Positions 3,491 to 59,748 of a stretch of 61,667 nucleotides of DNA are shown one piece after another (position 1 is the stretch's first letter; each line of letters opens with the position of its first letter). The stretch lies in IMG/VR virus record IMGVR_UViG_3300005253_000118, positions 1 to 61,667 of that record. One strand, given 5' to 3'. Origin of the DNA: a virus. Position numbers and translations under genes: made by a program. The notes beneath the pieces are model-generated. The model did not search any database. It saw only the letters and a list, made by a program, of their open reading frames with translations, and had not been told where the DNA came from.

Positions 3491-3802
3491 TTATGGGCTT
3501 ATTTCTATCGGGATATCGTCATCCCTAGTCTCAACGTATCCGCCAGCATCCAGAGCAGCGCTTCGATCCTGATTTCTTTTGTAGGCCCCAACTATATTCC
3601 GCAACCAAGTTCTTATCTGGGTTTCAGCCCATTTTATTTGGCCAATCCCATCCGGTTTAGGCCACCGGGAATTTATAGCCGCAATGGTAACATCAACCCA
3701 GGCATCCGGGACCGTAATTTTCAACTCCACATCAGCCGCCCGTGAACCTGCAACGAACGACAAAGACAAAACAATCATTGCTATCATAAATAACTTTTTC
3801 AT
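3491..3802 (-). CDS. Small exported protein, unknown
   Basis: 103 residues with a signal peptide (MKKLFMIAMIVLSLSFVAGSR, cut near residue 22), then a compact domain with WVDVTIAAINSRWP and WAETQIRTWLRNIVGAYKR. It resembles short helical phage proteins placed after tail genes. Its role is unknown. It is one of three consecutive late genes whose products carry N-terminal export signals. Confidence 0.6.
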   Translation of the reverse strand: MKKLFMIAMIVLSLSFVAGSRAADVELKITVPDAWVDVTIAAINSRWPKPDGIGQIKWAETQIRTWLRNIVGAYKRNQDRSAALDAGGYVETRDDDIPIEISP

Positions 3803-3812
3803 AATTTCTCCC

Positions 3813-5399
3813 TTAAAATCCAGTTGCGTAAACTCTATAAGTTATCCTTATGTCTACTTCACCACCACCGTCAGCAGTTTCGCCTGTCCCGGTATTGAAT
3901 ATTTGTAGACCTTGATTAATAGAGGCCTCTAAATCAGCACCCGCAGCTAAGGAATTCGGGTAATACCGAACCTCATCATCAGCTTGGTCAAGAAACGCAG
4001 TCGATTCAATGCTGGCCGTGGTATCCGTACCGTCCGCGTACTCAATAACAAAGTCCTCGTCAGCCCCTACGGTAAAAGCCGCTGACGCATAATCGTAGGT
4101 AATCATGGCAGAAACGAGTTTTATTATCGTGTTCGCGCCTTGGGCTGGTACAATTATAATTGGTGTCGCACGGAGAGCATTGACTTGGGCAGTCGTGAGA
4201 GTCATAACGGTTGCATTGAGCTTTGAACCATTCAGATCAACATCACCATAGGTGTTGATGGTAATCTCCATATTATAACTGGTAAAAGCCACACCCACGG
4301 ATGAGTAAGCCACAATACTCCCACCTCTTGATGCCGATAATGTCGCTGTTGTGGTAGACCCCACCGCCAGAACGTAATAGTTTGTGGAGGGGGAAAGATT
4401 GCCGCACAATGTACCTCCACCGGCAGCCACCTGTACCACATCATCTACGGCTAGACCATGAGCAGCAACAGTCTTTAACTCTACACCACTGTTGTCCTGG
4501 CAGACCGTAGCGTCCGTCTCGATTGTCCGGGAGGCTTCGGTTAGACGTTGGGCTTCAACCCCTCCGGCGATGAGGGAGAGGGCATCTCCGCCGGAATAAC
4601 CCATGCCGGTGTTAACATCATTTCTTTGTGATATTATAGTTGGATTACTTGCTGATGCTACTTCATTGAGCAATGCGGGACCAGTCCCCATTATGGCATC
4701 AACTAATCTACCCGAGGTTGTTTGCCAAATAGCTGTCCCATTAATGACTGTTATTAATGTATTATTGTTCGGTGCATACATGCCTGACTTCCCACTTCCG
4801 AACGCCCAAGTCGGTGTCACAGCGTCATTCTGCACCGGCAAAACAATCCTCGGTTCCCCACTTCCAGATCCGGATTCGATTATCAGAGGATCATTTATAT
4901 AGGTTATGCTCGCCGCTGAGATAGCCCCGGAGCTTGCATTCCGATCCAGGGTCACGGTCGTGTCAACCACCACCGATGCAACCCAGTAGGTTCCGACAGT
5001 GGCATTGGTCCCAGAATTGATAATAACCGCATCTCCTTCAGCCACACCATTGGTAGTGGCGACGGTCAGGACGGTTGGATTAGCGTCTGTTCCGGTGACA
5101 CCAGTTACTGTGGCTAAGACGTCTCCACCGAATATGACAGGTCTACCGGCAGCAAGGACGGCGTGGATTAGGCCGGCGGGAGTTGACGTCTCAAACCCTA
5201 CATTGCAGTTAATGAAATTAGCCTCATCAATTGTCTGGTCATCGAACTCTAGGTAGCAACCACTTGGGAGGAGGCCGATTTTACCGTCATCACTCATTTT
5301 AAACTTCTTGGAACTCGCCCCAAACGGCCCAAATCCCAAAGCAATCGAAGGGATTAAAACCAGAGCAAGTAGTATACTTAATATTTTAATTCGTTTCAT
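3813..5399 (-). CDS. Fibre- or appendage-like protein with a signal peptide
   Basis: 528 residues. Residues 1-22 are a signal peptide ending ALG. The rest is Thr/Ala/Gly-rich beta-repeat sequence typical of tail fibres or spikes (TVTGVTGTDANPTVLTV, TTTATLSASRGG, a DVDLNGSKLNATVMTLT passage) and a C-terminal beta domain. Virion proteins assemble in the cytoplasm and normally lack export signals, so this may be a surface or periplasmic protein, or the hydrophobic N-terminus may have another use. Family not assigned. Confidence 0.6.
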   Translation of the reverse strand: MKRIKILSILLALVLIPSIALGFGPFGASSKKFKMSDDGKIGLLPSGCYLEFDDQTIDEANFINCNVGFETSTPAGLIHAVLAAGRPVIFGGDVLATVTGVTGTDANPTVLTVATTNGVAEGDAVIINSGTNATVGTYWVASVVVDTTVTLDRNASSGAISAASITYINDPLIIESGSGSGEPRIVLPVQNDAVTPTWAFGSGKSGMYAPNNNTLITVINGTAIWQTTSGRLVDAIMGTGPALLNEVASASNPTIISQRNDVNTGMGYSGGDALSLIAGGVEAQRLTEASRTIETDATVCQDNSGVELKTVAAHGLAVDDVVQVAAGGGTLCGNLSPSTNYYVLAVGSTTTATLSASRGGSIVAYSSVGVAFTSYNMEITINTYGDVDLNGSKLNATVMTLTTAQVNALRATPIIIVPAQGANTIIKLVSAMITYDYASAAFTVGADEDFVIEYADGTDTTASIESTAFLDQADDEVRYYPNSLAAGADLEASINQGLQIFNTGTGETADGGGEVDIRITYRVYATGF

Positions 5400-18427: not shown

Positions 18428-18805
18428 TTATGTTGGGTCTGCTATCTCAACGTCCCAGGCAGCAACATTTACCTTTCCACCGCCGGTTAATCCTGTCGCA
18501 GTGGTGGTTGTAACGTAAAGAAGCACCGAACCTGCCACTTTCACCAACGCCACATGAGCTGCCGTGCCGGTGCTGTCGATCGAGACAGAACTTTGAGCGT
18601 TCATCTGAATTTTTCTGCCACTGGAGTCGCCATCGGCCGGTGAGCCGAAATCTGCCGAGTTGATAACCACGGACGCCAGCTTATAACTCGCTGTTGCTTG
18701 AGCGTAGGTTGTCGGCTGCGAGTTACACACACAAAGCTTGGTGGCGTTGCTCTTGATGTAATCAAGAGCTGCGTCTAATATAGCGTCTATTACTAATTTA
18801 GCCAT
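18428..18805 (-). CDS. Small structural protein
   Basis: 125 residues. A helical start (MAKLVIDAILDAALDYIKSN) precedes a beta domain rich in Ala/Thr/Val (SSVSIDSTGTAAHVALVKV). Proteins of this shape recur in phage head-tail clusters and are annotated as hypothetical or decoration proteins. It overlaps the upstream gene by eight bases. Confidence 0.6.
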   Translation of the reverse strand: MAKLVIDAILDAALDYIKSNATKLCVCNSQPTTYAQATASYKLASVVINSADFGSPADGDSSGRKIQMNAQSSVSIDSTGTAAHVALVKVAGSVLLYVTTTTATGLTGGGKVNVAAWDVEIADPT

Positions 18806-19547
18806 TGTGGTATGTCCTTAAATCTGGAAATAATTTGTTTCCCCCCGTATAGTTTAAGTATGTTTCATCGCCCATCTGATATGCCGTGTGAATCCAGAAC
18901 TTGTGCAAGTGAGCTATCAGGTGCCTAGCCTGTGAGTAATCAACCACGTTATTTACAAATGAATCCCTCAATATCCATTCCTCTTCCTCTTGTTCCGGAG
19001 TGATCTCCCAATCCTTGCTATCCCCCAATTCCTGCTCGTATTCCGTACAAGCTCTTTTGAGAATGACAGGCATGTCGGGAAGAAGGCCCTTAACCTCCTC
19101 ATACCTTTTCTGCCCCTCATCAAGTCTATTACAATAGAAATAACCCCCGTATTTCTTGCTACTGTTTTCCCTGGAAACCTCGGCCCCACACTTGCTTGGG
19201 TAATTCAGCTTCCTTTGAACGTGGTATAGCTGAAATAGTTCATCTAAAGTTCTTGGTTCACACACCACCTTCCAGCATTTCTGGCACTCGCTGTGGATCC
19301 GCTTCCAGTGAGTAAAGTAAATCTTGTGATACAGAAAACAGTCTTTCCCCATGTGCTGAATGAAAGCCCACGGTGGATGCCAAATAGGTTTTCGTACATG
19401 GTCAATCTTGCCATCTTCCCTGAGAAACAGCGTTCCGTTCTCAAACAACGGCTGGAGTTTAGAAACAATATCCCACTTACTGACTTCTAAATAATAGGGC
19501 AGAGCGTACTTCCCTAAATCTTCGAGTTTAATGTCTTCGAGTTTCAT
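18798..19547 (-). CDS. CWKV-family paralogue 1, unknown function
   Basis: 249 residues, one of three related proteins here (others at 23081-24115 and 29470-30171). Shared pattern in order: HW.......C..CWKV, P[RD][ST]L..L, KCG, YGGYFY, PVILKRACTE[YF]E, W.I(T), W[IA]HxAY. Conserved Cys in CxxC(W), KCG and ACTE suggest metal binding or structural disulfides. No known family recognised. Upstream it is coupled (ATGA) to a Cys-cluster protein, and downstream overlaps a structural gene. Confidence 0.7.
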   Translation of the reverse strand: MKLEDIKLEDLGKYALPYYLEVSKWDIVSKLQPLFENGTLFLREDGKIDHVRKPIWHPPWAFIQHMGKDCFLYHKIYFTHWKRIHSECQKCWKVVCEPRTLDELFQLYHVQRKLNYPSKCGAEVSRENSSKKYGGYFYCNRLDEGQKRYEEVKGLLPDMPVILKRACTEYEQELGDSKDWEITPEQEEEEWILRDSFVNNVVDYSQARHLIAHLHKFWIHTAYQMGDETYLNYTGGNKLFPDLRTYHNG

Positions 19548-23080: not shown

Positions 23081-24115
23081 TTAATGCGGAGAAGGATCGT
23101 TTGGATTATCCACGGGAGCACTCGGCGGGATAGCTGTCAACTCGTCATGCTCACCTATAAATTCATCTCTGAATTTCGGCCGAATCGAATCCCTAAACCC
23201 CAACGCCATGGCAACTTCATTGCGATCTGCTTCATGCTTACCCGCAGCAGCCACAAGGTCTTTTGAAAGTGAATTAAGTTTATCCCCGTTAAAATTCTTT
23301 TCCGCTACCAGACCGTTGTTAAGCATCATCTCACACTCTTCCAAGGTCTTGTCGTGATAGGTTTCATACCCCGGATAAAGCGGTTTGCCGTCCGTAAACT
23401 CCTTATAGGTCGGGTCTGCCCCGGCATACGCCCAATGAATCCACACTCGCTTTATGTGAGTGCGTACCATTTCCGGTTGATCGGCAGGGTTATTAATTTC
23501 TTCCACCTTATCCGTAAGAAAATCCTCTATCTCCATTTGTTCTTCGGTAATCTGCCAAGTAGACGATTTAGGGAACGCCATTTCAAATTCCGTACAGGCT
23601 CTTTTTAGAATAACCGGCACATCGGGAGAGATTGCGTCATTTACAGCTTCACGAACCACCTTGTAGCACTCGCGCCCGTTGGATAGCCCTTTATTATAGA
23701 AATACCCGCCATAGAGTTTCGCTGTGTATTCCCTGGCTTCTATGCCGCACTTGCTTGACATACCCAGCTTCCACTGAAGGTCTTTCAGCTTCCACAACTC
23801 GGAAAGCGACCTCGGACCCACAACTACTTTCCAGCATTCTTGACACTGGCTAGGCACAAACCATTGCCAGTGATTGAACATAATGAAATGCCAGAGATTG
23901 CATTTAAGGTTCTCTGCGTGTTTCTGGTGGAGCCACGGTGTGTTAAACCCCACGGCTTCCGTAGCCGTAGGCCGAATCATCCCGTTTGGCTTGATTAAAT
24001 AAGCACCCCTTGTAAGGGTCGGCATCAACCGGTCAATAATATCCTTTTTGTCTAACTTGCTGTAAATTCCTAAATCTTTAGAAGCCCTTGGCTTCATGTA
24101 TGAAAATTGTGACAT
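23081..24115 (-). CDS. CWKV-family paralogue 2, unknown function
   Basis: 344 residues, the longest copy. The core has CQECWKVV, PRSLSEL, SKCGIEAREYT, YGGYFY, SPDVPVILKRACTEFE and WIHWAYAGAD, followed by a C-terminal tail with ETYHDKTLEE and a Pro-rich end. The N-terminus (MSQFSYMKPRASKDLGIYSKLDKKDIIDRLMP) aligns with paralogue 1's DLGKYALPYYLEVSKWDIVSKLQP. Downstream gene is a YkgJ-like protein. Confidence 0.7.
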   Translation of the reverse strand: MSQFSYMKPRASKDLGIYSKLDKKDIIDRLMPTLTRGAYLIKPNGMIRPTATEAVGFNTPWLHQKHAENLKCNLWHFIMFNHWQWFVPSQCQECWKVVVGPRSLSELWKLKDLQWKLGMSSKCGIEAREYTAKLYGGYFYNKGLSNGRECYKVVREAVNDAISPDVPVILKRACTEFEMAFPKSSTWQITEEQMEIEDFLTDKVEEINNPADQPEMVRTHIKRVWIHWAYAGADPTYKEFTDGKPLYPGYETYHDKTLEECEMMLNNGLVAEKNFNGDKLNSLSKDLVAAAGKHEADRNEVAMALGFRDSIRPKFRDEFIGEHDELTAIPPSAPVDNPNDPSPH

Positions 24116-25222: not shown

Positions 25223-26299
25223 TTAATTATGCACCACAGCGTAAGAAGAGATCGTCATACAGCCGTAATCCTTGCTGGCAAATCGGACCTTCTTCATACC
25301 GAAGACGGACCCAACAGCGATCCCTTTCTCGTTGCCATAGTCAGTTACTTCCTCAAACCACTTGAACATATTGCCCTTACCAACCTTTCGCTGTGCGATC
25401 GTGTCGTAGGCGTTGCCTTGTGCAAACACACCCGCTTGGGCACCCAGCATCAGGTTTCTCCGAACATCTGTACTCGGAGAGTGAATCCGCTGAGACTCAA
25501 AAAGGATGCAACCTTCGTAGACCCCTAGCGCACCGGTGAAAAGTGGGTTTTTAAGCCCTCTCCGGTTGGCATACATCTGAATATCGCTCCACTTGGTGTA
25601 AGTGGAAGCCGCTATATTCAGTTTCAGGTCGGTTACGGAAAAGGGATGCAGAACCACAACGTAATACTCTTCACCATCCACAATTGCCGGACGGATCGGA
25701 GGTGTAATGGTCTTTGCCTTTTCCTTGGCAAAGTTCAGGTCTGCCAGCGCAATCTGAGAGGTAGAACCTAAATTACCTTCATCAGTTACAATCGCACCTG
25801 TGTGGCCTACAGTGCCGGTCACTACATAGTGATCGGTATCAGCAACCACCCCGGTGTTACCGGCAAAAGACAGGCCAGTGTCCCCACCAAGATACCTGAA
25901 CATGTAATCGTCGTACTTACCGGCATACCAGTCTGAGAGGTTCGTCTGCGCGTCGCTTCGCATGTTGTGAAGCGTTCTTTGCTGACTCATATGCTTGAAG
26001 GAATGTGCGTTCCGAAGCTGGTTAATTTTCACTGAATCCTGTTCATAAACCAGAGGCTCTTCAAAGTCCTTCATCCGGTTATCGCCTTCTATGCCGGCGT
26101 TCGTCATTTGCATCAGGAGGTCAAACTTAATTTCATCCCCCTTGCCTTTCTCCAGGTCTTTAAGACGCTGAAGTATCGCTTTTTTACCGTCACCCAGAAA
26201 CTTCTTGAAATAGGTAGCTTTTAGGGCTTCCCTCATCAGAAGGCTGGACCAAATCTTGACGGTTTGTGCGTCGTTAGTACCGAATTCTGTTACGGCCAT
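25223..26299 (-). CDS. Major capsid protein, N4-gp56 family
   Basis: 358 residues. Family marks are the N-terminal FGTNDAQTVKIWS..L..EALK.TYF.K (6-33), a central LADLNFAKEKAKT..PPIRPAIVDGEEYYVVVLHP (185-219) and GLKNPLFTGALGVYEGCILFE (248-268). These motifs belong to the HK97-fold capsid proteins of the N4-gp56 group. A good ribosome-binding site precedes the ATG. Fragments of these three motifs reappear in small genes at 36.5-38.0 kb. Confidence 0.9.
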   Translation of the reverse strand: MAVTEFGTNDAQTVKIWSSLLMREALKATYFKKFLGDGKKAILQRLKDLEKGKGDEIKFDLLMQMTNAGIEGDNRMKDFEEPLVYEQDSVKINQLRNAHSFKHMSQQRTLHNMRSDAQTNLSDWYAGKYDDYMFRYLGGDTGLSFAGNTGVVADTDHYVVTGTVGHTGAIVTDEGNLGSTSQIALADLNFAKEKAKTITPPIRPAIVDGEEYYVVVLHPFSVTDLKLNIAASTYTKWSDIQMYANRRGLKNPLFTGALGVYEGCILFESQRIHSPSTDVRRNLMLGAQAGVFAQGNAYDTIAQRKVGKGNMFKWFEEVTDYGNEKGIAVGSVFGMKKVRFASKDYGCMTISSYAVVHN

Positions 26300-29469: not shown

Positions 29470-30171
29470 TTAATAGTTAACGCTTTGGACAACCAATTTG
29501 TCCCAATAATTCGGGTCGTCAAAAAACCCGGTTACCACTTTTTTAACCGTGCGATCCCCTATCGCAATCGCGTGTTTTATCCATTCGACCTTTATTTCGT
29601 GTTTCAACTTGTCGTTTTGCTGCTCATGCCAATATATCGAGCAGTTGAACTTCTTTTCCAAATCAAAAAACTCATTTAGGTCATGCTCCCGGGTCTGGTC
29701 TGCCGCCTCGGTTGCTTCCCACTCGGTTGATGGTATCCTCTCTTCCATCTCAGTGCAACCTTTTTTAATTACAGTCGGTAATGGGGTGATATATGAAGAA
29801 ACTATTTTATGGGCTTCATCAAGGCTGTTTGTATAAATAAAACCCGCCCAGGGTCCAAAAGTGTAATCCCTTAAATCCATGCCACATTTGCACATAAACC
29901 CCGACTTTTCTAAAATATCTGATAATCCAAATAATCCCGAAAGCGTGTCGGGTCTAATCGCCACCTTCCAACATCGATTCCGGCAAAAATCCGGAATGAC
30001 ACCAAAATGCTCAAAGTACGCTGCAAGCCAGTAGATACAGCGCCTCTCTGGATCGGACTTGAAATATATCCAAGGCGTTGTCCCACGGTATTCAGCAAAT
30101 GTTATCTTCCCATCACCGTTCTTGCACCACATCGGGTCCGCAAGAATCTTATTAACTCTTTTTTCCTCCAT
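29470..30171 (-). CDS. CWKV-family paralogue 3, unknown function
   Basis: 233 residues, the most divergent copy: CRNRCWKVAIRPDTLSGLFGL, CKCGMDLRDYT, WAGFIYTNSLDEAHK, LPTVIKKGCTEMEERI, WIKHAIAIGD. The conserved Cys and GFIY/TVIKK core identify it as the same family as 18798-19547 and 23081-24115. It lies in the portal-scaffold interval. Confidence 0.65.
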   Translation of the reverse strand: MEEKRVNKILADPMWCKNGDGKITFAEYRGTTPWIYFKSDPERRCIYWLAAYFEHFGVIPDFCRNRCWKVAIRPDTLSGLFGLSDILEKSGFMCKCGMDLRDYTFGPWAGFIYTNSLDEAHKIVSSYITPLPTVIKKGCTEMEERIPSTEWEATEAADQTREHDLNEFFDLEKKFNCSIYWHEQQNDKLKHEIKVEWIKHAIAIGDRTVKKVVTGFFDDPNYWDKLVVQSVNY

Positions 30172-31243: not shown

Positions 31244-31450
31244 TTATTTCACCCCCCTATTTTTCCTCGTAACCTCAACAAGCCGGATACCACCATCAAG
31301 CCAAGTAACCTCAACGGTAGTCTTGCCTGTGGATTTCTTAGCCGCCCAATCAGCATAAAACCCCCGTTCGTACTCGAAAAGATCATGCAGCGTTAGTTTT
31401 CTGCTGCTGTCTTTGGGCGTTAACTTGGTTCGATCTGACAATAAAATCAA
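31244..31450 (-). CDS. Hypothetical protein overlapping the portal end
   Basis: Up to 68 residues from a TTG start inside the portal gene; the likely true start is internal, since LHDLFEYERGFYADWAAKK begins at the end of the portal gene. C-terminus EVTWLDGGIRLVEVTRKNRGVK is protein-like. TAAATG joins it to the next gene. Confidence 0.4.
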   Translation of the reverse strand: MILLSDRTKLTPKDSSRKLTLHDLFEYERGFYADWAAKKSTGKTTVEVTWLDGGIRLVEVTRKNRGVK

Positions 31451-33446
31451 GCTCCTGTCGGCGCTCCTCTAGCCCGAGTTTCGCGGTATCTATCTGGTGT
31501 TTCTGAGCGCCCTTTGTCTTTTGTTCGTCTAGTTTCTCATGCCCGAGCTGAGTGGATGTATCGATCTTCTTCATGCTCGACTCCATATTTGCCTGAATCT
31601 TCAACTTTTCTAACTCAATCTGCTGTTGCTGCGCCTGTTGCGCCGCCTGTTGCTGCTGTTTAATAAACTCTAACCACCGGCGCTTCTCAGATGCGGAGAT
31701 ATCAAGTTTTTCAATAACTGCTTCCGGGTCAACCTCAAACCCCTTCTCCCGCATTTCCATGAACACTGCCAGGTCCATAACACGTTTTGATTTGTTCGCT
31801 GGGGACTCTTCGGTATCGACATTATATTTTAAGTTTCTCAGATCCCGTATGTTAGCCTGCTGCCCGTGCTGTTTATCATAAATGATACCGTTTTGGATAA
31901 CGTATCTATCTGTCTGCCCAAGAATGTCCATTATCTGCTCATCGGGCATAAATTTTACGACGATCGTCTGTGTCCGTTTATACATAGCCTCTTTGTGCAT
32001 CCGGCCGCTCTTAAACAGGGGTTTCAACAACATCATCCCCTGCTGCTGTCTCAACCGGATAACGACGCCAGGCTCTTGGCGGCCACGGTCCATACCAAGA
32101 AGGTCCGGGTTCCCGGCCGGGCTTACCCGTTTCATCATGTTTTGCGCGGCCTCCTCTAACGCCATGGGCGCGGCGGGCAGGGCTGGTATTTTGCGATCCT
32201 GGATTTTGCCCTTAATGAGAGCCCCTTCCGTTAGAAGCGTTGTACCCCCGACATCTCTTAGAGACGCCTCGCCCTGCGCCTGATCCACAAAAGCGCCTTC
32301 TTCCACGTAAACCCCGGGTTGGACCTGATTATTCAACCAATTCAGGGTTTGAGACCATCGCTTATTAACTTCCCGTTGCGGGTCTTTCATCGGTCTGACT
32401 ATTCCTGAATTGTTACCAGTACGCTTTGAAGGGTCGCTGTACGCAAAGCAGGGGACTATGGAAAACCCGTCATAGGGTAGGGGAGAATCACCATCAAAGA
32501 GAACCCTGTCTCCAATAAACTGAAGCCACTTAGCCTTTTTATCCATCACGGTCACATACTCGAATTCTTGCCCGTAAAGCTGCGGATAAACTCCCTCTAG
32601 TTTTTTCAAGTTCTTTTCTTCAAACTCCATGCCCTTATTGGTCTCAGGATGAAAACCGTAATATCGCTTATATGACTGCCAGTATTCCATGTGAATCACA
32701 CGCACCATGCGTTTGGTCCTGTCAAAATAAGTTATATCAAGAGGGGTATTGTAATCAGAAGTGTCTTCGTCTTCCAGATCAGGCGACATCTCGAACATAT
32801 CATCCGCTTTCATGGAAGCAAGCGGTCCCGACATCTGACCGGTCGCCAGTATTTCCTCTAAATGCGCCGCGTGCTTTGGATACCGTATCTTAAAGTCCTC
32901 GGCTGTTACCCATTTCTCCCAAAAGATATGACTGGCATCCAGAATATCCTTTCTTCGTGAAGTGGGGTCTTTTTTAACTTCATGGACAGGAATACTTGGG
33001 AATTCGATAATAATATGTCCCAATCGCTTCGGATCCGGGTTGAAATCGATGGCGCCCCAGCCGCGGCCACAGATTATCGAAGACTCAAAAACGTCATCTT
33101 CCGCTTCCTCGGCTCCGGCCTTTTTTCTTACAAAATCAACGGTGTTGTTTAAAACTTCGCATAAAAAGTCGTCTCCGGGTTCAACGGGTGTGGCAAAAAA
33201 CCGAACGCGGGTGTCCTCATTGAGACCCATCACCAACTCAACTGAGTTTCTGATAAGGTTAAAGGTCATTAAATGGCGCTTCTCCTCGGCCATTATATTT
33301 ATTTCCGCGTCGGTCCACTGCTTATTATCTACAAAATTAAAGTCCTCTCGCGCCTCGGTTTGAAAATCGGTATCGGCTGTAGCGGCCTCGAGATGCAGTT
33401 TCTTCGCTCTCTTTAGTTTTTCAGTTTTACTTAATCCGTCGAACAT
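31383..33446 (-). CDS. Portal protein, P22-like
   Basis: 687 residues. The N-terminus (DFQTEAREDFNFVDNKQWT, RHLMTFNLIRNSVELVMG) matches the P22/N4-type portal family, with the conserved NxxGxxNDTR-like block replaced by GLNEDTRVRF, a WGAIDFNPDPK clip region, the LNWLNNQVQPGVYVEEGAF stretch, and a long Gln-rich coiled C-terminus that would form the barrel. The portal forms the dodecamer at the packaging vertex and recruits the terminase. Confidence 0.85.
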   Translation of the reverse strand: MFDGLSKTEKLKRAKKLHLEAATADTDFQTEAREDFNFVDNKQWTDAEINIMAEEKRHLMTFNLIRNSVELVMGLNEDTRVRFFATPVEPGDDFLCEVLNNTVDFVRKKAGAEEAEDDVFESSIICGRGWGAIDFNPDPKRLGHIIIEFPSIPVHEVKKDPTSRRKDILDASHIFWEKWVTAEDFKIRYPKHAAHLEEILATGQMSGPLASMKADDMFEMSPDLEDEDTSDYNTPLDITYFDRTKRMVRVIHMEYWQSYKRYYGFHPETNKGMEFEEKNLKKLEGVYPQLYGQEFEYVTVMDKKAKWLQFIGDRVLFDGDSPLPYDGFSIVPCFAYSDPSKRTGNNSGIVRPMKDPQREVNKRWSQTLNWLNNQVQPGVYVEEGAFVDQAQGEASLRDVGGTTLLTEGALIKGKIQDRKIPALPAAPMALEEAAQNMMKRVSPAGNPDLLGMDRGRQEPGVVIRLRQQQGMMLLKPLFKSGRMHKEAMYKRTQTIVVKFMPDEQIMDILGQTDRYVIQNGIIYDKQHGQQANIRDLRNLKYNVDTEESPANKSKRVMDLAVFMEMREKGFEVDPEAVIEKLDISASEKRRWLEFIKQQQQAAQQAQQQQIELEKLKIQANMESSMKKIDTSTQLGHEKLDEQKTKGAQKHQIDTAKLGLEERRQELDFIVRSNQVNAQRQQQKTNAA

Positions 33447-34670: not shown

Positions 34671-36353
34671 TTACCGCGTCCAGGCGGTTCCTCGTCTCCT
34701 GATTCTCCAATACTGAGCAACTAACTTACTAATGTTCTGCGTTCCTATTTTCTCAGAGGCCAGCATACAATAGTTCGTTGCGTGCCGATAATGGTCTTCT
34801 TTTGTACCCACAGTCACAAATTTATATATTTTATCCCCCGTGTCGCGGTCCTCATGCAGAATCTTAGCAACATTTGTCATCTGTTTAGCATAGTCTTCCA
34901 TGGCGCTGGATCCTTTCACCGGAAGTTCCAGCCTTCCGCTGTGTGCAACAAGTTCATGTGAGGCGTCAAGAAGTTCGGTTCGGTTACCATAAATTTCCTG
35001 GTCCTTATCATTCCATGCTGTCGGCCCCCGCTGTTTCCCTTCCTGATAGCCGCACAAATAAACCGAGTTTCTCTTCTCATGTGTCTGAAAATCCCTGACC
35101 TTATTGGTTTCTGGGTATTTATCAATCACCGTACACCGAACTCCGAACTCCTGGGCTATTTTGTGAAGATGATTAAAGGGATCTTCGCCTTTAACCTTTT
35201 CAATCTTACCAATTTTGATAACTTTCAAAAGGCTGACACTTGGTTTTACACCAATTACATAATGAAGCGCCTTACCGACATCAACTCCCATGCAAGCCGG
35301 CCCGTCACTATTTTCCGCCATGACGTCTTCTCTGCAACAGGCATTAACCTGATTCACCCCCAAGCGATTCTCTGTATCGATATAGGGCATACCCAACATC
35401 GAGTTATAAACCTCGCCCAGGTTCCCGTCAGGCGGGTGCCTAAAAGCCTGCAGGATTTCTGTGGGAGATATGAAAGCAGAGTTTAAAGCGGAAATCCACC
35501 ACCCGACCATATCTTCCGCTCTTTCAGGAAACCGGGCTAACCAATAACCGTCCCGGGTGAAAATCTCCTTCCCACATTTCATACATTTTCGAAACGCCTC
35601 TAATTTTCCCTCAACCCTACGCTCCCCCAGGCAATCAGGGAACTCCATTTCAAGGCAAGTTTCATGGTTACACGCCTTGCATCTAATCATCCACACACGC
35701 ATGTCAGAGGTGTTATACAGCCTGTCGATACCATGATCCGGTATGGTGGGTGTTGACAAATATGCTTCCTGACGAACCTTAGAATGGAACATACGAGCCA
35801 ATGCAAGTAGAATCATAGCAACGTCCATCTCATCAACCTCGTCAAAAACCACAATATCAACAGGAGCAGATTTTAGTTTTGTACTGCTCTTTTTACCACT
35901 GGAGCCACCAATCTTTGTTGTTGCCCTCGCGCCATGCAAATACAACATAGCATTGGCTATCCTTTTCATAGAGGCGTTGTCTGTGTTTCTAACATACTGT
36001 GCAATAACAGAATTAGCCGCTATCAGCGGATCAAATCTGGCTTTTGTAAATTCATGCGCGTCATCCCCTGTAGGAAAGAGATACATGGCCCCCTGCTTAT
36101 ATTTGCCGTATATCAAGCCGTGCATGACCTTGAGGATCCACATAGCCGTAGCACCCCACTGTGCGCTCTTCATCATACACTGTTTGCGTGCATTGCACTG
36201 AATAGGATCGACCTGATACAAATGCCCGTCCAGCGTGTACGGCATCCCTTCCGTAAACTTAATCTTATTAACTCTGAGCCAGTACAGAATATCCAGGGCG
36301 CCGCCTTGTTCGACGATCTGTTCCGGTGTGAGTTTTATTGCCGGTATTGCCAT
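34671..36353 (-). CDS. Terminase large subunit, GpA-like
   Basis: 560 residues. ATPase part: KSAQWGATAM at 62-71 (adenine/Walker-A region of lambda GpA-type terminases), Walker B IVVFDEVDEMD at 167-177. Zinc ribbon CKAC (225-228) and CMKC (257-260). Nuclease part: MGVDVGK around D358 and VIDKYPET around D411. This is the motor-nuclease for genome packaging. It begins just after a Cys-rich tiny gene. No frameshift seen. Confidence 0.9.
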   Translation of the reverse strand: MAIPAIKLTPEQIVEQGGALDILYWLRVNKIKFTEGMPYTLDGHLYQVDPIQCNARKQCMMKSAQWGATAMWILKVMHGLIYGKYKQGAMYLFPTGDDAHEFTKARFDPLIAANSVIAQYVRNTDNASMKRIANAMLYLHGARATTKIGGSSGKKSSTKLKSAPVDIVVFDEVDEMDVAMILLALARMFHSKVRQEAYLSTPTIPDHGIDRLYNTSDMRVWMIRCKACNHETCLEMEFPDCLGERRVEGKLEAFRKCMKCGKEIFTRDGYWLARFPERAEDMVGWWISALNSAFISPTEILQAFRHPPDGNLGEVYNSMLGMPYIDTENRLGVNQVNACCREDVMAENSDGPACMGVDVGKALHYVIGVKPSVSLLKVIKIGKIEKVKGEDPFNHLHKIAQEFGVRCTVIDKYPETNKVRDFQTHEKRNSVYLCGYQEGKQRGPTAWNDKDQEIYGNRTELLDASHELVAHSGRLELPVKGSSAMEDYAKQMTNVAKILHEDRDTGDKIYKFVTVGTKEDHYRHATNYCMLASEKIGTQNISKLVAQYWRIRRRGTAWTR

Positions 36354-36354
36354 A

Positions 36355-36543
36355 TTATTTATCTTGTTTCAGCACTGTGTAATTACTGCACGTTAGGTTG
36401 TTATTTACTACTGGCTCCGAATTCGCCCTATCACCATATTTATAATAAATGATTTTAAAGGGATCATGGCACTCCCCGCTTTGGTCATCTGAAAGTGGCA
36501 TGGGGTGAAAATGCCCGCATGTTTCACACGTTGGTCCACTCAT
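36355..36543 (-). CDS. Small Cys-rich protein
   Basis: 62 residues with CETCGH at 6-11, C26 and C52. It overlaps the Tat/capsid-like gene end by 20 bases and precedes terL. Unknown role. Confidence 0.45.
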   Translation of the reverse strand: MSGPTCETCGHFHPMPLSDDQSGECHDPFKIIYYKYGDRANSEPVVNNNLTCSNYTVLKQDK

Positions 36544-36760
36544 TATTACCCCCCCTTATTTGGTCAATAGTAATCCTGTCTTCTTGATAAAGCGTTACGC
36601 CGGAATATTTGCCTATTTCACCGCTAAAGATCGGATTCTTGAGCCCGCGCGGTTTCCATCCGCCACGGAGTTGCCCAAGTGTAGGAAATATTTCTCCTGG
36701 AAAAAGCGTTAACCCAAGGACTGCCGCTGCGGTTCGTTTTATGAATGAACGTCTTTTCAT
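36524..36760 (-). CDS. Tat-signal protein with a capsid-like segment (copy 1)
   Basis: 78 residues. Residues 3-9, RRSFIKR, followed by a hydrophobic stretch (TAAAVLGLTLF), form a twin-arginine export signal. Residues 38-63, PRGLKNPIFSGEIGKYSGVTLYQEDRI, closely match the capsid protein at 247-272 (RGLKNPLFTGALGVYEGCILFESQRI; about half identical). The rest is short and unrecognised. It is related to the gene at 37487-37750: both have GEIG(K/R)Y where the resident capsid has GALGVY, and their DNA is also similar. It is probably derived from a capsid gene. Function unknown. Confidence 0.65.
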   Translation of the reverse strand: MKRRSFIKRTAAAVLGLTLFPGEIFPTLGQLRGGWKPRGLKNPIFSGEIGKYSGVTLYQEDRITIDQIRGGNNEWTNV

Positions 36761-36993
36761 TTGGAAAGCAAAATAGTATCAACCCGTTTACCATCAACAA
36801 AGTAAAAACAATTCACATCTTTCAACCTTGAATCTATTATAATCTTCCCCAACGGTGTCTTAACAATAAGGCGGTCAATCCCCGAGCCCATCTCAATTTC
36901 TTCAGTCAATTTAAGTAAAGATTTCGGCCATTTATGCTGCAATCCTATCATCGAGTTTATCAATCGCATCAAAAATACACTCCATACACGCAT
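36757..36993 (-). CDS. Small hypothetical protein
   Basis: Up to 78 residues; the upstream ATG (36993) overlaps the 42-residue gene 36932-37060, and an inner ATG at 36951 is a possible start. The C-terminal half (GIDRLIVKTPLGKIIIDSRL) is beta-like. No family. Confidence 0.4.
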   Translation of the reverse strand: MRVWSVFLMRLINSMIGLQHKWPKSLLKLTEEIEMGSGIDRLIVKTPLGKIIIDSRLKDVNCFYFVDGKRVDTILLSK

Positions 36994-37060
36994 CGTATAG
37001 TGTCTTGATTTTTTCTATCGTTAGCTCGCCCTCAATATCAGTATTGATTGATTTAATCAT
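36932..37060 (-). CDS. Tiny hypothetical protein
   Basis: 42 residues from ATG at 37060 behind GGGAAAG; acidic helical sequence (DIEGELTIEKIKTLYDACMECIFDAIDKLDD). It overlaps the next gene in another frame. Confidence 0.4.
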   Translation of the reverse strand: MIKSINTDIEGELTIEKIKTLYDACMECIFDAIDKLDDRIAA

Positions 37061-37093
37061 TTTTCTTTCCCTCTAATAAATAGAAAAAGTCGG

Positions 37094-37378
37094 TTATAAA
37101 TCACTTAATGGAGCGCCCTTTGAAACTTCATCAAATAACTGTCTCCATTCACTGTTATCTATAATACCAAACGTCACAGCACACTGGATTATACCCTTTC
37201 TATATTCCCTGGTTTTTCTCAGTCTTAATATTTTCAACAACTCTACTTTTCTATAACCGGAAGTTTTAGGGGGTACACTCAAAACAACCTTTCTAAGTTC
37301 ATTAAATTCTTTCTGCGTCCTAAGTAAACTAGCAATCATCCTGTTCATGGTATAAATTTGGGATTTCAGTTTATCCAT
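37094..37378 (-). CDS. Helical basic protein
   Basis: 94 residues: coiled N-terminus (NRMIASLLRTQKEFNELRKVV), then RKVELLKILRLRKTREYRKG, a C-terminal SEWRQLFDEVSK. Possibly nucleic-acid-binding. No family. Confidence 0.5.
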   Translation of the reverse strand: MDKLKSQIYTMNRMIASLLRTQKEFNELRKVVLSVPPKTSGYRKVELLKILRLRKTREYRKGIIQCAVTFGIIDNSEWRQLFDEVSKGAPLSDL

Positions 37379-37389
37379 TACCCCCTCCT

Positions 37390-37441
37390 AAAATAGAAAA
37401 GGGCGCATGCTAAGAGGGTGAGCTCTCACCAGCGCCCTTTC
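37390..37441 (-). terminator. Terminator hairpin
   Basis: AAAGGGCGC (37398-37406) and GCGCCCTTT (37432-37440) form a 9-pair stem with an inner GGTGAGAGCTCACC hairpin. The minus strand continues TTTTCTATTTTAGG. It separates the two Tat/capsid-like genes' neighbourhoods and can act both ways. Confidence 0.65.
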
Positions 37442-37486
37442 TATTCTCTAAATCCGCAAGAGAGCTACCCCTACGGGTTTTGTTTG

Positions 37487-37750
37487 TTATTTATTTAGTT
37501 TTGAGAAATAAGACTCTTCCAGTGCGTCTTTCCAAATCGTTTTAGACCAAATCTTAACGGCTTTTGAGTCGTTAGTGCTAAAATCCCAGACATTCACGCC
37601 CTCATACCGACCTATCTCCCCAGTAAAGATCGGGTTTTTCCTCCCCCTACCGGCCGAAACCGCCACATCTGACGGAATTAAGGCTTTAGGAACCACAAAA
37701 GCCAGCCCTAACAGAGCGGCCGCCCGCTTTATGAATGATCGTCTATTCAT
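37487..37750 (-). CDS. Tat-signal protein with two capsid-like segments (copy 2)
   Basis: 87 residues from the ATG at 37750 behind GGGGAG. RRSFIKR at 3-9 plus the hydrophobic AAALLGLAFVV is a Tat signal. Residues 38-53, KNPIFTGEIGRYEGVN, match the capsid motif near residue 250. Residues 57-86, DFSTNDSKAVKIWSKTIWKDALEESYFSKL, match the capsid N-terminus (EFGTNDAQTVKIWS...ALKATYFKKF). In the capsid the order is the opposite, so the segments are permuted. The stop follows soon after. It may be an exported capsid mimic or relic; no function is known. Confidence 0.65.
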   Translation of the reverse strand: MNRRSFIKRAAALLGLAFVVPKALIPSDVAVSAGRGRKNPIFTGEIGRYEGVNVWDFSTNDSKAVKIWSKTIWKDALEESYFSKLNK

Positions 37751-37755
37751 TTCAA

Positions 37756-38013
37756 TCACTCCCCTAAGAACACATGGCAATAATCATAACGTCTAATAAT
37801 TTTATAATATGCCTTCCCGTCAATCATAATCGGCGCCATTCCGTTTTTTTTCATCCGCTCCACCGCCTTATCTATGTCAACGACGGTAAGTTGCTTGTGC
37901 TTAGGAGTCTGATCTAATATAAACGTATCGTTATAAATTTTTAATTTATCTTCAGCCTTATTCAAAACACCCCTCAGCCTCCTCTTCCCCAAGCTCAGCA
38001 CCACAGGTCGCAT
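37756..38013 (-). CDS. Small protein with a capsid-like central segment
   Basis: Up to 85 residues; a TTG at 37965 behind GAGGAGG is a plausible start. LTVVDIDKAVERMKKNG.APIMIDGKAYYKII resembles the N4-gp56 central motif (capsid 184-216: ALADLNFAKEKAKT..PPIRPAIVDGEEYYVVV). It lacks a Tat signal. It directly precedes copy 2 (which carries the later and N-terminal motifs), so the two adjacent genes together hold three capsid motifs in a non-collinear order. Confidence 0.5.
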   Translation of the reverse strand: MRPVVLSLGKRRLRGVLNKAEDKLKIYNDTFILDQTPKHKQLTVVDIDKAVERMKKNGMAPIMIDGKAYYKIIRRYDYCHVFLGE

Positions 38014-40361: not shown

Positions 40362-40553
40362 TTACCCTCCTTTTTTTATATAATCTTTAGTGTGGGTCTC
40401 TAGTTTAAAACCGCATCGGGCGCATTTCCAGATGAGCTTTTCCTCACCCAGCGGCTCCTCCCCAAAAAATACATCCGTATACCACCTCTTATTAGTGGGT
40501 GACCCAAACCCGCACTTTTCACATTTCTCAGGTACCTCGTGGTATAATATCAT
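40362..40553 (-). CDS. Zinc-ribbon mini-protein 2
   Basis: 63 residues: CEKCGFGS ... LIWKCARCGFKLETHTKDYIKK. Directly beside mini-protein 1 and clearly similar in the second half, so a tandem duplication is likely. Confidence 0.55.
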   Translation of the reverse strand: MILYHEVPEKCEKCGFGSPTNKRWYTDVFFGEEPLGEEKLIWKCARCGFKLETHTKDYIKKGG

Positions 40554-58539: not shown

Positions 58540-59099
58540 ATAGCAGCTCCTTTCGATGGAATAAAAATCTCCCCACATTGCGGACATTCGACCTCTTTGG
58601 GTCCGTCGTTTCTAGACCCCGGAGGATCAACCATATTCGGATTTGTTATTTCGTCTATTTCGTTTAGGTCGTATGCCGTCAACTCCATATCAATATCAAG
58701 TACTTTCAATTCGCTTAATAATTCGGACAGCTTATCATTATCACGCACGGCCAATTCCGCAATATAATTATCGGCCACTAAGTCAGCATGTTCCAACGCC
58801 TCGCTCTCATAGTCCTGATAATCCACCGGAGCTTTATTGATGCCCGCCTTGAAAGCTGCTTCTAATCTGCCATGACCCCTTACGATAAGACCCGACCGGT
58901 TTGATACTGTTATGGGTAACCGCCACCCCTGCTTTGATATAATATGGCTTAATTTTTCGATCTGTTTTACCGGGTGCGTATTCGGGTTTTTCGGATTCAT
59001 TATTAATTCTACGCACGGGACTATCTTGTCATGGGCGCACCATACTGGGACCTTGCCGATGGTTGCGCGTGGTTTGATTTTGGTTTTTGGTTTTTTCAT
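58536..59099 (-). CDS. ParB-like protein
   Basis: 187 residues from the ATG at 59099 (ATGA overlap with the Tat gene). MNPKNPNTHPVKQIEKLSHIISKQGWRLPITVSNRSGLIVRGHGRLEAA is a ParB/Srx-type domain (GHGRLEAA replaces the GERR motif), then ALEHADLVADN. C-terminal CPQCGEIF zinc knuckle. In phages this protein is often next to a methyltransferase, and here they are coupled by a four-base overlap. Confidence 0.8.
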   Translation of the reverse strand: MKKPKTKIKPRATIGKVPVWCAHDKIVPCVELIMNPKNPNTHPVKQIEKLSHIISKQGWRLPITVSNRSGLIVRGHGRLEAAFKAGINKAPVDYQDYESEALEHADLVADNYIAELAVRDNDKLSELLSELKVLDIDMELTAYDLNEIDEITNPNMVDPPGSRNDGPKEVECPQCGEIFIPSKGAAI

Positions 59100-59341
59100 T
59101 TGGTTATAAACTCCTTTATTCCTTTTGATTCCATTTTCCATGAACCGGTGCCTATAATCTCTTGCCAACCACCATCGATCCGAATAGATACGATGGCGTG
59201 TTTCCCATGAATGGTCTCTGTGCTGGGTGTTACAATCGGCCTCGGTATCGAATAAAAGACCTTCGGGACACACGGCACTATCAATCCACCGGCCATCATG
59301 TAGCCTAGTCTTTGAAGGAATTTTCGGCGGGTTAGGATCAT
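59096..59341 (-). CDS. Tat-signal protein, short
   Basis: 81 residues from the ATG at 59341 (ATGA overlap with upstream gene). LTRRKFLQRL plus the hydrophobic GYMMAGGLIVP is a twin-arginine signal. The short mature part (PKVFYSIPRPIVTPSTETIHG ... IRIDGGWQEIIG) is not capsid-like to my eye. Third Tat-type protein in the window. Confidence 0.55.
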   Translation of the reverse strand: MILTRRKFLQRLGYMMAGGLIVPCVPKVFYSIPRPIVTPSTETIHGKHAIVSIRIDGGWQEIIGTGSWKMESKGIKEFITK

Positions 59342-59538: not shown

Positions 59539-59748
59539 TTAAACAACCTCCTTTTTGTAATCGTATGGGTAGGTCTGATCCTCGTAACCACATCGGGAAC
59601 ACGTCCACAAGACACTTTCTGAGAAAGCTTTCGTCTCAACCCCTAAAAATAATTGGGCAGGACTACTTTCTATGTATTTCACGCGCCATGTACGATAATT
59701 CGGATTACACTTTGGACAATGGGCCTCGATTTCATTAAATAATTTCAT
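59539..59748 (-). CDS. Zinc-ribbon mini-protein 3
   Basis: 69 residues: CPKCNPN ... VLWTCSRCGYEDQTYPYDYKK. Similar to the mini-proteins at 40161 and 40362, 19 kb away. Confidence 0.5.
   Translation of the reverse strand: MKLFNEIEAHCPKCNPNYRTWRVKYIESSPAQLFLGVETKAFSESVLWTCSRCGYEDQTYPYDYKKEVV

Follow-up and report, generated by a model that had tools for sequence, protein, structure and literature searches.

Two groups of described proteins are closest to the small phage proteins considered here, Tat1 and Tat2. The first comprises the major capsid proteins (MCPs) of the N4-gp56 or Phage_capsid_3 type (PF13252, phrog_334), to which short segments of Tat1, Tat2 and m066, a similar protein from another phage, are homologous. 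The mini-proteins (minis) differ from these capsid proteins in having a twin-arginine (Tat) signal and permuted segments, and in missing most of the fold. The second group comprises the Tat-exported bacterial proteins (TIGR01409). The signal of the minis is of the same type, and that of Tat2 resembles the signal of Gfo/Idh-type oxidoreductases. However, the minis have no cofactor-binding enzyme domain, and their mature part consists of just 50-90 capsid-like residues. Superinfection-exclusion proteins and the capsid-interference proteins of satellites are also small and phage-encoded, and act at the envelope or on capsid assembly. We know of no such protein in which a Tat signal precedes pieces taken from the capsid of the phage itself.

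The window, which is the whole 61,667-nucleotide stretch analysed, is the virus record IMGVR_UViG_3300005253_000118 (61.7 kb). It belongs to a tailed phage whose portal is of the P22 type, whose terminase large subunit is of the GpA type and whose MCP is a Phage_capsid_3 protein. The three genes that a sequence-only reading had described as built from shuffled capsid motifs (36524-36760, 37487-37750 and 37756-38013) are present in their reading frames on the minus strand. The features discussed below are as follows.

25223-26299, minus strand: resident MCP (PF13252 / phrog_334 / N4-gp56 type), the reference for comparisons.
31383-33446, minus strand: portal protein (P22-type), a context gene.
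34671-36353, minus strand: terminase large subunit (GpA-type), downstream of Tat1.
36524-36760, minus strand: Tat1, a mini-protein of 78 amino acids with a Tat signal at about 1-20, the capsid late motif at 38-63 and a tail like MCP 84-100.
36757-36993, minus strand: open reading frame (ORF) directly upstream of Tat1, with a gapped likeness to MCP 14-78.
37487-37750, minus strand: Tat2, a mini-protein of 87 amino acids with a Tat signal at about 1-20, the capsid late motif at 27-54 and the capsid N-terminal motif at 54-85.
37756-38013, minus strand: ORF directly upstream of Tat2, with a weak likeness to MCP 182-216.
59096-59338, minus strand: third Tat-like mini-gene, MILTRRKFLQRLG..., scoring 13.4 bits with TIGR01409, below the cut-off; a ParB-like gene adjoins it.

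The model of the resident MCP has the HK97 fold (pLDDT 79), and its top match among solved structures is the capsid protein of Ralstonia phage GP4 (8h89). Within this model, the minis copy the N-terminal helix at residues 11-28, the E-loop strands at 85-100 and a late hairpin at 259-268. In HK97-fold capsids the N-arm and the E-loop form contacts between subunits. The MCP genes of two related phages (L011:5609-5899 and L022:10233-10556) are each interrupted by a group I intron (Rfam RF00028, 82.9 bits in both cases) that lies behind about residue 74; the complete insert in L011 is about 770 bases long. Two further sets of genes in the window are related among themselves. Three paralogs, all on the minus strand, lie among the structural genes (18798-19547, 23081-24115 and 29470-30171; 28-40% identity, E down to 1e-48), and two related small zinc-ribbon-like proteins are encoded far apart on the minus strand (40362-40553 and 59539-59748; E=7e-7).

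The Tat signals that the sequence-only reading had proposed are above the TIGR01409 cut-off of 16.7 bits in both proteins, Tat1 scoring 18.6 bits and Tat2 17.6 bits. Two segments of Tat2 match the resident MCP in BLASTP comparisons: residues 54-85 correspond to MCP 3-34 (47% identity, E=4e-9) and residues 27-51 to MCP ~238-263 (E=6e-7). The later motif thus comes first and the N-terminal motif second, and it is for Tat2 that the proposed permutation relative to the capsid holds. Among 38,880 PHROG families, Tat2 matches one, phrog_334, a major head protein (E=1e-4). The N4-gp56 profile TIGR04387 recognises Tat2 at E=8e-4, but its 18.8 bits, like the 11.9 bits of Tat1, are far under the whole-protein cut-off of 60; the score of Tat2 with PF13252 (12.7 bits) is also under the cut-off, which is 23. 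The Tat2 gene has a strong ribosome site, a Shine-Dalgarno sequence AGGGGAG 8 nt upstream of the ATG. Prediction of Tat2 alone with AlphaFold2 gave no confident fold (pLDDT 47), and the protein is too short for an entire HK97 fold.

In Tat1, residues 38-63 match MCP 247-272 (BLASTP, 54% identity, E=9e-9). The tail, YQEDRITIDQIR, is weakly similar to MCP 84-100 (p=0.003), a likeness missed by the sequence-only reading; other capsids tried match it worse, and the tail probably corresponds to this region. Tat1 starts at an ATGA overlap with the stop of the preceding ORF and its end overlaps the start of the next gene, 36355-36543, which is the one gene between Tat1 and the terminase. An origin of the tail from an HNH endonuclease, suggested by locus L005, was considered and rejected because the matching residues, GGNNEW, come from GGGGGGTAATAATGAGTGG, which forms the ribosome site and the beginning of gene 36355-36543; Pfam, PHROG and NCBIfam give no HNH match.

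All 445 ORFs of 50-130 codons in the six frames of the window were ranked by shuffled alignment against the resident MCP. Tat2 ranks first and Tat1 second (p=1e-8 and 2e-7), and they are the only window ORFs, apart from the MCP itself, that match a profile made from 24 related MCPs (E=5e-12 and 2e-7). The ORFs directly upstream of the two genes rank next: 36757-36993 is third (p=1.5e-4), with a different frame there looking like the gene, and 37756-38013 is fourth (p=1e-3). The latter had been claimed to carry the central capsid motif. It reaches E=0.001 in one comparison and E=0.076 with the MCP profile, so the capsid motifs are established in Tat1 and Tat2 but not in this third gene. Both upstream ORFs are treated as unproven because unrelated ORFs in another phage attain p=4e-4 by the same measure. 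There is a suggestive hint of capsid origin for 37756-38013, which, like 36757-36993, does adjoin a Tat gene. The third Tat-like mini-gene, 59096-59338, also missed earlier, was compared with the MCP and no capsid motif was found (p=0.98).

The clustering of these ORFs bears on the main sober rival explanation, recombination debris, in which pieces of a capsid gene that was duplicated or replaced chance to follow Tat-like starts. In its fullest version the region from 36.5 to 38.0 kb is an exploded second capsid gene, represented by MCP 182-216, 240-263, 3-34, perhaps 14-78, 247-272 and 84-100. The segment order is permuted, the top four MCP-like ORFs of the window all lie within one 1.5 kb that is home to 15 of the 445, and the intron-split MCP genes of the two relatives indicate that capsid genes here do break. 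Against this, Tat1 and Tat2 look selected rather than like debris, because they have diverged to saturation at synonymous sites and yet encode a conserved protein: over 55 codons dS is ~2.5 and dN 0.38. The differences per site are 0.78 synonymous and 0.09 non-synonymous in the signal, and 0.85 and 0.26 in the capsid motif. These values point to selection at the protein level that acts on the signal as well as on the capsid part, as estimated from a single pair of sequences. Furthermore, the starts are intact, the operon is tightly packed, and six other phages have the same architecture, in one of which the mini is packed between terminase and portal. Conservation, packing and recurrence disfavor debris, which we regard as improbable, and the relic of recombination that the sequence-only reading had entertained is less likely for the same pattern of substitutions and the recurrence.

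Ordinary similarity searches with Tat1 and Tat2 found no homologs in cultured phages, and none of Tat2 in IMG/VR. The genome contigs matched by Tat2 (L045-L048) encode oxidoreductase-like proteins that have the Tat signal alone in common with it. Because these searches gave no homolog, IMG/VR was scanned for a pattern, a Tat start followed 31-41 codons on by GxxGxYxG, and two relaxed scans were added. All four matches of the first scan are in frame and are Tat mini-proteins. The relaxed scans gave two further minis, together with chance matches (L069, L070, L072-L077 and L079-L084) that have the Tat and capsid motifs in different frames or have no Tat signal. The six minis of other phages are m065 (G017), m066 (G018), m067 (G019), m068 (G020), m071 (G021) and m078 (G022). 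They were selected by searching for this very combination and thus say nothing of its frequency; their recurrence does mean that the absence of any homolog with the same fusion, which would have spoken against the sequence-only reading, is not what is found. A search with tblastn of Tat1, Tat2, m065, m066, m068, m071 and m078 against 50,697 cultured-phage records gave no mini and a few matches at capsid genes with E of about 0.1 or higher. A pattern scan in 388 genomes of one bacterial phylum gave one match, apparently out of frame from its letters, and no Tat genes were found upstream of the terminase in capsid relatives.

The signals of the other minis vary in strength. TIGR01409 does not detect that of m066, and those of m067, m068 and m078 are at or below the cut-off in one or both searches. 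None of 26 other phage records has a match above the cut-off, and in the phages with minis the Tat matches are the minis themselves; Tat signals are otherwise rare in phage records.

The capsid parts of the minis mostly follow the capsid of the phage that encodes them. Each of five minis matches a single PHROG family among the 38,880, always a major head protein: phrog_334 for Tat2 and m066, phrog_267 for m065 and phrog_1357 for m067 and m068, several of the matches being individually weak (E from 1e-4 to 0.1). The MCP of the m065 phage itself belongs to phrog_267 and that of the m066 phage to PF13252, so that the MCP families differ between phages with minis (phrog_334-like and phrog_267). 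The tails, which lie outside the search pattern, have the phage's own MCP as best match in Tat2 (p=1e-9), m065 (p=1e-9, compared with p>0.2 for other capsids), m066 (p=0.004) and Tat1 (p=0.003); the tail of m078 has no significant match to its own MCP. A second own-MCP segment is accordingly supported in Tat1, Tat2, m065 and m066 and unsupported in m078. An MCP was recognised in three of the other phages, those of m065, m066 and m078, and in all three no small ORF resembles it more than the mini does (first of 69, of 517 and of 280); the motif used in the search may add to the scores of m066 and m078. For m067, m068 and m071, a search of their records for an MCP found none. When the MCP profile of the window was run against 7,153 distinct short ORFs from all fetched loci, the ORFs above the inclusion threshold were intron-split capsid exons, Tat2, Tat1 and m066, with m071 and m078 just under it. 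The sequence-only reading had suggested that Tat1 and Tat2 descend from another capsid or diverged together. Descent from another capsid is not supported in that form: their GEIG(K/R)Y does differ from the resident GALGVY, but the tails go with the MCP of the respective phage, even where the MCP families differ.

These comparisons also bear on chance, that is, on the possibility that the minis are short Tat-like ORFs that look like a common hairpin rich in glycine and have tails whose matches are luck. The motif matches are short (20-35 amino acids), mostly under whole-family cut-offs and often weak when taken singly, and the likeness of the Tat1 tail to an HNH nuclease did arise by chance. 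The tail of m071 (KFENFIGSQWRNPIPGQY; L071:574-918, plus strand) resembles the N-terminal part of the aldehyde dehydrogenase model NF050026 (E=0.0035), which is possibly another chance match or else a second kind of captured motif. However, luck would have to account for the first two ranks among 445 ORFs, for the first rank in each of the three other phages, for a p of 1e-9 with shuffled tails in two cases and for a first scan with every match in frame. We consider it very improbable.

Several of the minis are found near genes for packaging and the head. The m066 gene directly follows the terminase large subunit gene, which ends at 3726, and directly precedes the portal gene, which starts at 3996. 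The m071 gene is upstream of the genes for the small and large terminase subunits, and m078 is about 11 kb upstream of its own MCP gene. These positions, together with that of Tat1 one gene upstream of the terminase, suggest late expression with the head module.

A location at the membrane could have a purely structural purpose. The Tat-type signal would then serve solely as an inner-membrane anchor of the peptide, whose capsid segment, still in the cytoplasm, would recruit the MCP or procapsids for head assembly. The model for such a tether is phage T4, in which head assembly is membrane-bound. The copied N-terminal helix, E-loop strands and hairpin include elements of subunit contact, and the genes adjoin the terminase and portal genes. 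On the other hand, a conserved twin arginine is needless for a plain membrane anchor, structure prediction of Tat2 gives no support, and signal-peptidase sites, judged by eye, are plausible in m066, m067, m068 and m078. A tether is a rather unlikely explanation overall. The same signal-peptidase sites favor export and release; to export with an effect outside the cytoplasm we give somewhat less than an even chance.

In the explanation that we prefer, to which we give about an even chance, Tat1 and Tat2 are members of a recurring class of late genes for envelope-directed capsid mimics. Each member would start with a Tat signal and carry, after a spacer of about 34-40 residues, the late capsid hairpin GxxGxYxG, features found in frame in Tat1, Tat2 and, by construction of the scan, in the six others. 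In several cases a second own-MCP segment appears to follow, taken from the N-terminal helix or from the E-loop/spine region. The sequence basis for this class comprises the Tat profile match, the homology to the own capsid, the recurrence, the head and packaging neighborhood in three records and the conservation between the two copies. The peptides would be made late and would imitate elements by which capsid subunits contact each other; the Tat machinery would bring them to the inner membrane and probably through it. Most likely such a mimic at the envelope would bind or titrate something that recognises capsids: at the membrane, the MCP or procapsid of the phage itself, or else a factor of the host or of a rival.

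No published description of such genes was found in the open-licence literature, an absence that does not prove novelty. The Tat-capsid minis are apparently a recurrent kind of gene without a description so far, occurring in the window phage and at least six others. Capsid proteins are thought to act solely within the infected cell and the virion. It is a little less than an even prospect that phages repeatedly build Tat-exported mimics of the contacts between their own capsid subunits, and that these form an unrecognised class of late genes acting in the envelope on capsids or on factors that recognise them. If this is true, there would be an unrecognised phage step at the bacterial envelope, in membrane assembly, exclusion or evasion, and the minis supply short peptides that are easy to test. 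The minis also hint that some of the short unannotated genes of phages could be decoded by comparison with the large proteins of the same phage.
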